DNA of 64,000 nt from NCBI GenBank assembly GCA_002049455.2, contig KV918871.1:62001-126000 (forward strand), written 5' to 3'. Positions 32,243 through 32,603 of the stretch are shown here, piece after piece; position 1 is the first letter of the stretch; each line of letters starts with the position of its first letter. A model generated the notes under the pieces. The model had not been told where the DNA came from. It saw only the letters and a list, made by a program, of their open reading frames with translations, and made no database searches. This DNA comes from Porphyra umbilicalis (Eukaryota > Rhodophyta > Bangiophyceae > Bangiales > Bangiaceae). The translations under genes were made by a program, and so were the position numbers.

Positions 32243-32246
32243 AAAA
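32243..32246 (-). terminator. Pol III terminator of tRNA-Gly
   Basis: A TTTT run on the minus strand begins a few bases after the tRNA 3' end, as expected for RNA polymerase III termination. Confidence 0.7.
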
Positions 32247-32249
32247 TAT

Positions 32250-32349
32250 TGCGCTTGCCGGGATTTACGTGTCGGGAATCGAACCCGGAGCCCTAGCGGG
32301 TTTTGGGGGATATGGAAAGCTAGAATGTTCACCATTACACTACAAGCGC
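32250..32349 (-). tRNA. tRNA-Gly(UCC) with two 14-nt introns
   Basis: Minus strand, 100 nt. After removing two inserts, all stems pair: acceptor GCGCTTG/CAAGCGC plus discriminator A, D arm GTGT/ACAT, anticodon arm CTAGC/GCTAG with loop TTTCCAC (anticodon UCC), and T arm CCGGG-TTCGATT-CCCGG. The first intron (32299-32312) is at the canonical 37/38 position. The second (32263-32276, or a boundary shifted by up to four bases because CCCG is repeated) sits at the T-loop/T-stem border. Without its removal the acceptor stem cannot form. Mature length is 72 nt before CCA. Such ectopic introns are known from red-algal nuclear tRNAs, for example Cyanidioschyzon. Confidence 0.93.
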
Positions 32350-32520
32350 TTGTTCGGTTGCCTGGCAGCGATTTTTGAACTAATTTATACCTAGCCATGT
32401 TCTGTACGGGCGGTACTCTGATAGTCGCTCATACAGATGCACCACATCCTGCTCGAGCCTGCTGCACGTACAGACACACACAAAAATACACAAAGAGCAC
32501 AATGATAGCGGACGAAAACC

Positions 32521-32603
32521 CAACTCAATGTTGTCTTGCCAACCCAGCTCAATGTTGTCTTCCTGCTGCACGCACTCAATGTTGTCTTCCTGCCGCACGC
32601 ACA
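32521..32603. repeat. Three-copy short tandem repeat (CTCAATGTTGTCTTCCTGC)
   Basis: CTCAATGTTGTCTT occurs three times at about 25-30-bp spacing in the bZIP-like gene's 3' flank. Confidence 0.8.

Follow-up and report, generated by a model that had tools for sequence, protein, structure and literature searches.

The window analyzed here, a 64,000-nt stretch of DNA, carries on its minus strand (32250..32349) a sequence that reads as a tRNA-Gly(UCC) gene with one canonical intron and a second insertion in the T arm, which raises the question of whether it is a working gene spliced at two sites or a tRNA gene that has been broken. From its sequence and from comparison with other tRNA genes of the same genome, we consider it very likely that this is a functional nuclear tRNA-Gly(UCC) gene, probably the only one that its red-algal host has, and that both introns would be spliced out by an endonuclease following a local bulge-helix-bulge (BHB) rule, with RtcB the probable ligase. 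It belongs to a set of such genes spread through the genome, and that set, together with its apparent cutting rule, is what we report here.

Structure and detection of the tRNA-Gly(UCC) gene

Direct reading, Rfam, a covariance model, and a cloverleaf script all identify the unspliced gene, which runs from position 1 to the discriminator base A73. Read on the minus strand from 32349 to 32250, its 5′ part is GCGCTTG TA GTGT AATGGTGA ACAT T CTAGC TTTCCA [tatcccccaaaacc] (outer brackets, intron 1) and its 3′ part is C GCTAG GGCT CCGGG TTCGAT [tcccgacacgtaaa] T CCCGG CAAGCGC A (outer brackets, intron 2). Exon 1 (positions 1 to 37; 32313..32349), defined by the script and by direct reading, contains the anticodon TCC at 32314-32316 and is followed by a 14-nt intron, TATCCCCCAAAACC, which the cloverleaf search placed at the canonical 37/38 site (32299..32312). 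The script then gives exon 2 (positions 38 to 59; 32278..32298) and exon 3 (positions 60 to 73; 32250..32263), separated by a second 14-nt intron, TCCCGACACGTAAA, which we place in the T loop at 59/60 (32264..32277). Reading and script agree with the preliminary description in that a cloverleaf forms only when both 14-nt introns are removed, the first of them at 37/38, and that the stems then pair completely: acceptor 7/7, D 4/4 (one G-U), anticodon 5/5, and T 5/5. The unconstrained minimum-energy fold of the 72-nt spliced product is a cloverleaf (−27.0 kcal/mol) plus one extra anticodon-stem pair, and the product has the hallmarks of tRNA-Gly(UCC): a UCC anticodon, U33, A73, and no encoded CCA. 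When removals of 0 to 59 nt from the T arm were compared, only a length of 14 reached 12/12 T-stem and acceptor pairs, the runner-up reaching 10/12; this length can be removed in six equivalent registers, 59/60 to 64/65.

Judged solely against the familiar consensus, internal Pol III promoter elements and a terminator are all present: an A box, TAGTGTAATGG (32332..32342); a B box, GGTTCGATTCC (32275..32285), whose last three bases (TCC) come from the start of intron 2; and a terminator-like TTTT (32243..32246) starting 4 nt past the gene end. Such a TTTT lies within 30 nt downstream of all eight T-loop-intron genes described below, compared with 5.1% of 18,276 segments of 30 nt sampled from the window, whose G+C content is 66% (mean of 32 rows). 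A consensus B box spanning the border of exon and intron 2 also occurs in Val(UAC) L135 (GGTTCAATTCC) and is absent from the other six T-loop-intron genes. Upstream of the gene (32350-32389) are a TATAAA about 35 to 40 nt away and a CAA immediately 5′, an arrangement reminiscent of plant tRNA promoters; several other T-loop-intron genes are likewise preceded by CA-rich sequence. A 12-bp palindrome, ACAAGCGCTTGT, spans the 5′ end of the gene (32342-32353), and a 27-bp tandem repeat (2.0 copies) lies at 32548-32602.

Standard tools recover the gene in part. The Rfam tRNA model scores 31.7 bits at the locus, which is the only match in the window above a gathering score, and the match ends at 32266, within the T-arm insert; ARAGORN, run on the window, called no tRNA there. 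Searches with models that admit noncanonical introns, which the preliminary description had proposed, do find it. A custom cloverleaf search with optional introns scored the gene at 19.3, against a best score of 15.4 among 2,055 shuffled sequences (second best, 12.8). A covariance model trained on five of the T-loop-intron tRNAs but not on the window gene had this gene as its sole match at E ≤ 10 in the 64 kb (25.3 bits; E = 9.1e-5); neither a seven-gene MAFFT alignment, in which Val and Pro were misplaced, nor an alignment with a shifted D arm for the window gene was used to build it. On 93 fetched loci the model gave 63 matches at E ≤ 1, some of them intron-less tRNAs, so that it supports a tRNA with an insert-tolerant T arm and not, by itself, an intron.

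Other disrupted tRNA genes in the genome

The cloverleaf search was extended to 411 anchors in fetched loci, plastid included, allowing introns in the D loop, at 37/38, and in the T loop of genes in normal order. At a cutoff of 14 it returned 41 nonplastid rows representing 40 distinct sequences (L162 position 271 was a double reading). Twelve of these were intron-less, 28 had at least one intron, and 18 had an ectopic intron, proportions that are not genome-wide rates because loci were sampled with bias, identical copies were collapsed, and the intron-less rows include at least two organelle-like tRNAs (L069 and L084). Six Gly(GCC) rows scored 14.3 to 14.8, under the best shuffle, and were counted for their 37/38 introns alone; false T-arm calls in these rows, also uncounted, arise from an A3-C70 mismatch. 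An Ala tRNA (L131) and an intron-less Gly(GCC) (L132) look real, lie beyond the limits of the search, and are absent from the 40.

T-loop introns were found in 7 of the 40 sequences: the window gene, Asn(GUU) L138, Cys(GCA) L134, Thr(CGU) L161 and L162, Val(UAC) L135, and Pro(CGG) L062. A separate search for Thr(CGU) added L167, bringing the total to eight genes of six isotypes. Introns in the D loop were present in 11 of the 40: four Tyr(GUA), two Leu(CAA), and one each of Arg(UCG), Arg(CCG), Ser(CGA), Gly(CCC), and Asn(GUU); those of three Arg(ACG) genes (L057, L100, and L155) were read by eye and stand outside the D-loop test below. Ectopic introns in the D and T arms of many nuclear tRNA genes, a trait of the Cyanidioschyzon-type disrupted tRNA set, are present in this genome.

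Sister copies differ in which introns they have. Thr(CGU) L016 lacks the T-loop intron and is otherwise identical to the exons of L162 and L167, differing from L161 at two bases; the three Thr T-loop introns may share a common ancestry. Gly(CCC) L094 differs from the intron-less L040 and L111 only by a 31-nt insert in its D loop. Of the Asn(GUU) genes, L138 has its intron in the T loop and L129 in the D loop.

Several further observations concern individual families. In Cys(GCA) L134 (270-359), a second T-arm-like stretch, GGGTTCAACACCC, runs across the T-loop intron and the next exon, as if the intron had been born from a partial duplication of the T arm. The A3-C70 acceptor mismatch is common to Gly(GCC) L041, L042, L045, L048 to L053, L122, and L132; these copies have 37/38 introns of 11 to 13 nt that differ in sequence, except for L132, which has none, and six Gly(GCC) copies lie on both strands within 227 to 241 kb of contig C27. 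Organelle-like tRNAs in nuclear contigs (L069, L074, L084, L136, L137, L139, and L140) are probably inserted plastid or mitochondrial DNA. L063, L121, and L151 are likely further disrupted tRNAs, and L160 (346-433) is a Lys(CUU)-like sequence that has lost its 3′ acceptor end, apparently a real pseudogene.

Intron site and pairing rule

For the seven placed T-loop introns, stem pairing alone leaves 58/59 and 59/60 as the sole joint fits. All seven genes fit 59/60; five fit 60/61, two fit 61/62 and 62/63, and one fits 63/64 and 64/65. At 59/60, loop positions 54 to 57 pair with positions i-3 to i-6 at the 3′ end of the intron in 22 of 28 possible cases, which none of 20,000 shuffles of the intron letters equaled (2 of 5,000 in a recheck); nine T-loop registers were tried, and the other eight (56 to 58 and 60 to 64) gave shuffle fractions of 0.17 to 0.99. 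L167, found after the rule had been stated, forms 4/4 pairs and raises the sum to 26/32 (0 of 200,000 shuffles as good), and with one gene per isotype the value is 19/24 (23 of 200,000). Position i-3 is A in all eight introns (12 of 200,000 shuffles), and the U54-A(i-3) pair corresponds to the anticodon-intron pair known from canonical introns.

The same geometry holds for introns at 37/38, where positions 32 to 35 form 46 of 64 pairs with i-3 to i-6 over 16 rows (0 of 20,000 shuffles), 14/20 with one gene per isotype (108 of 20,000), and 23/40 with Gly(GCC) excluded (168 of 20,000). The anticodon and T arms are alike, each with a 5-bp stem, a 7-nt loop, and a site before the last loop base; because their dimensions are equal, one enzyme could apply one local rule in both. 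From these pairing counts, T-loop and anticodon-loop introns appear to follow a single rule, with a cut before the last loop base and the intron 3′ end paired to the start of the loop.

In the D loop, the 20/21 site gave the best of 28 registers tried (34/44 pairs in 11 genes; 0 of 3,000 shuffles), with a neighboring register at 30/44 (1 of 3,000); for Gly(CCC) L094 the site is fixed at 20/21 by its intron-less sister copy. With one gene per isotype the result is 20/28 (166 of 20,000 shuffles), which is weak after 28 registers, so the extension of the rule to D loops is suggestive.

These comparisons revise the placement of the insert in the window gene. The preliminary description put it at 32263-32276, on the border of T loop and T stem; that span is one of the six equivalent registers (60/61), and we replaced it with 59/60 (32264-32277) after the seven-gene comparison, since gene comparison and pairing favor a position inside the T loop. 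A true intron that is cut elsewhere among these registers (60/61 to 64/65), such as within the T stem, is improbable. The spliced product is identical for all six, which is what gives this reading its standing; yet 60/61 fits 5 of 7 genes, 61/62 and 62/63 fit 2 of 7, and 63/64 and 64/65 fit 1 of 7, against 7 of 7 for 59/60, and pairing at registers 60 to 64 is at shuffle level (fractions 0.18 to 0.99).

With the introns placed at 37/38 and 59/60, the anticodon and T arms of the window gene can each form a relaxed BHB with a central helix of 3/4 pairs: positions 32 to 35 (32315-32318) with i-3 to i-6 (32301-32304) in the anticodon arm (32301..32318), and positions 54 to 57 (32280-32283) with i-3 to i-6 (32266-32269) in the T arm (32266..32283). 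The lack of an endonuclease-compatible fold at the T-arm junctions, which the preliminary description had named as evidence against splicing, was not seen: compatible pairing occurs at both junctions and is weak in energy. The precursor cloverleaf alone has a predicted energy of −23.9 kcal/mol, and −21.4 or −21.7 kcal/mol with either central helix, a cost of 2.2 to 2.5 kcal/mol. Unconstrained folding of the window precursor gave no BHB; its minimum (−26.6 kcal/mol) has a core that is not a cloverleaf, and CCCG of the T-loop intron can substitute for the exon CCCG to build a rival T stem. Of 200 shuffles, 30 fold at least as well as the precursor (z = −1.10), so its stability does not clearly exceed theirs; six other precursors were folded, and z was near 0 for two of them.

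Copy number, function, and splicing

Neither the unspliced nor the spliced gene, used as a query, found a second Gly(UCC) copy in the 83.8-Mb assembly (665 contigs). A like search with Thr(CGU) recovered four copies, intron-bearing and intron-less, so close Gly(UCC) sisters should have shown up; the other intact tRNA-Gly(UCC) gene that the preliminary description had considered as a counterargument was not found in the assembly at this sensitivity. The genome contains 133 matches to the B-box pattern GGTTCGANTCC, compared with 59 to a reversed control; split by the free base, the counts are 90 versus 7 for A or T and 43 versus 52 for G or C. Fifteen of the 133 are on the plastid contig C665, and the remaining 118 were all run through the cloverleaf search. 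The UCC readings among these loci were the window gene, plastid L002 (24.5), and L151 (11.8, under the shuffle ceiling of 15.4), with no others. In an Rfam survey of the genome, 63 of 1,261 candidates were scored. A divergent Gly(UCC) copy without a GGTTCGANTCC B box may exist elsewhere in the genome; at the sensitivity of the searches run, the nuclear gene is probably single copy. Under the wobble rules, Gly(GCC) and Gly(CCC) tRNAs are unable to read GGA, so the copies of these that we saw could not replace Gly(UCC), and the gene is probably essential.

These results bear on whether the locus is a pseudogene, that is, a Gly(UCC) gene that has its intron at 37/38 and was broken by a 14-bp insertion in the T arm or by a duplication of TCCCG. 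The insert and the following exon both start TCCCG, as a duplication would leave them, and decayed tRNA copies such as the Lys-like L160 do occur in the genome. Moreover, according to PMC4090602, D- and T-arm insertions in eukaryotic tRNA genes mostly affect a single gene out of many synonymous ones and are regarded as pseudogenes. Here, in contrast, the searches of the assembly turned up no synonymous copy, all stems pair without sign of decay, the insert matches seven other T-loop introns in site and pairing, and a terminator-like TTTT is in place. We therefore regard a pseudogene as unlikely, to about the same degree as a cut at another register.

Much less probable is that the T-loop insert is retained, giving a mature tRNA with an enlarged T loop. 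In its predicted fold the unspliced RNA does keep the acceptor stem closed, but the sister Thr(CGU) L016 exists without an insert, and a T loop of 21 nt would be unable to contact the D loop in the usual way. The genome does contain repeat families whose B boxes are tRNA-like, yet a tRNA-derived repeat (SINE head) is hardly credible here, since those families share long flanks and have no full cloverleaf above the shuffle ceiling, whereas the Gly(UCC) locus is the opposite and its 100-bp unit was found once. The SINE-like families with conserved flanks comprise L035, L058, L065, L070, L071, and L098; L056, L077, L078, L117, and L147; and L061 and L104.

For a functional gene with two spliced introns, the pathway we propose is as follows. 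Pol III would transcribe the gene with both introns, whose 3′ ends would pair with the first loop bases (32 to 35 in the anticodon arm, 54 to 57 in the T arm) to form a relaxed BHB of a five-bp stem, a three-nt bulge, a short central helix, and a three-nt bulge. A Sen2/Sen34/Sen54 endonuclease would cut at 37/38 and 59/60, just ahead of the final nucleotide of each loop, and the exons would be joined by a ligase, for which RtcB is the probable candidate. The predicted excised products are two 14-nt RNAs, UAUCCCCCAAAACC and UCCCGACACGUAAA.

Components for such a pathway are encoded in the genome. A Sen2-like gene lies on contig C7 and a Sen34-like gene on C104 (matches to PDB Sen2 and Sen34 chains at E = 1.2e-10 and 1.7e-16), a Sen54 N-terminal domain on C25, and RtcB on C294. 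No Sen15 match to PF09631 was obtained at E ≤ 10, which is weak evidence of absence, since the family is small, an intron-split gene could escape, and the named controls include no eukaryote.

Red-algal host and comparison with known systems

The 185-kb contig C665 represents a plastid genome: its RbcS strongly matches PDB Rubisco small-subunit chains, the top one being 8bdb, which we take to be a red-algal form-ID enzyme, and it also encodes a phycobilisome protein, a phycobilisome linker, and genes that by eye resemble argB and ilvB. These plastid genes identify the host as a red alga. The plastid content, the assembly size, and the G+C of the window agree with Bangiales such as Porphyra or Pyropia, which makes the host a probable bangiophyte; the earlier suggestion that disrupted tRNA genes extend to a further red-algal lineage is supported to that extent.

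Cyanidioschyzon merolae resembles the host in being a red alga with several introns per tRNA, with introns in the D, anticodon, and T arms, and with BHB motifs. Its sites are scattered over the cloverleaf, and PMC3978253 and PMC9602550 call its combination of ectopic introns, multiple introns, and permuted tRNAs unique. As in the host, Sen2, Sen34, and Sen54 were found in C. merolae, in which no Sen15 is recognizable (PMC3978253). The two algae differ in that C. merolae is described there as having scattered sites (12/13, 14/15, 53/54, 55/56), various BHB types, and 11 permuted genes, whereas the T-loop introns of the host fit 59/60 and its scored D-loop introns fit 20/21, in a search that covered D-loop, 37/38, and T-loop introns only. 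The same paper gives 20/21, 37/38, and 59/60 as the junctions of C. merolae permuted types I, II, and IV (PMC3978253), the very sites that fit the host introns. In contrast to the permuted genes of C. merolae, the genes found in the host have normal order.

The nucleomorph of Guillardia theta is of red-algal origin. It also has introns in the D and T arms and multiple introns, and their excision was confirmed there by reverse transcription-PCR, as given in PMC4090602 and PMC3978253; it differs in that its insertions span 3 to 24 nt, many without a defined BHB, and in being a nucleomorph and not a free-living nucleus. Archaea, too, have BHB introns outside 37/38, and permuted tRNAs of Thermofilum pendens join at 59/60 according to PMC3978253. 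The archaeal endonuclease is symmetric, whereas the host has the eukaryotic Sen2/Sen34/Sen54 set.

The statement that ectopic nuclear tRNA introns are best known from Cyanidioschyzon-type red algae accords with the cited literature, which yields C. merolae and the Guillardia nucleomorph. Among the matches listed in a search of open-licence literature, with most subscription papers outside it, no title or abstract opening reported ectopic introns in tRNA genes of Bangiophyceae or of any other seaweed. Since such introns are already known from Cyanidioschyzon and a cryptophyte nucleomorph, what is new is the lineage and the cutting rule.

Eukaryotic splicing endonucleases are described in PMC3978253 as setting their cuts by a ruler from the tRNA body, which favors 37/38. 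A T-loop intron in a single-copy Gly(UCC) gene, and six isotypes sharing one site, argue that in some eukaryotes the enzyme recognizes nothing beyond the hairpin. More broadly, one local hairpin rule in all three loops might place introns at 20/21, 37/38, and 59/60, with the eukaryotic "ruler" relaxed or absent, as an old red-algal trait (Cyanidiophyceae, probably Bangiophyceae, and the cryptophyte nucleomorph); we put this forward tentatively, at slightly short of an even chance.

Red-algal tRNA gene counts, Porphyra umbilicalis included, were obtained with tRNAscan-SE at default settings in PMC10496412, and that program is described in PMC3978253 as finding tRNA genes that are intron-less or have 37/38 introns. 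Given this scope, default counts may miss genes such as those described here, which suggests that red-seaweed counts from standard finders may be incomplete. The host offers a second red-algal system for disrupted tRNAs, with a simpler pattern of sites than that of C. merolae.
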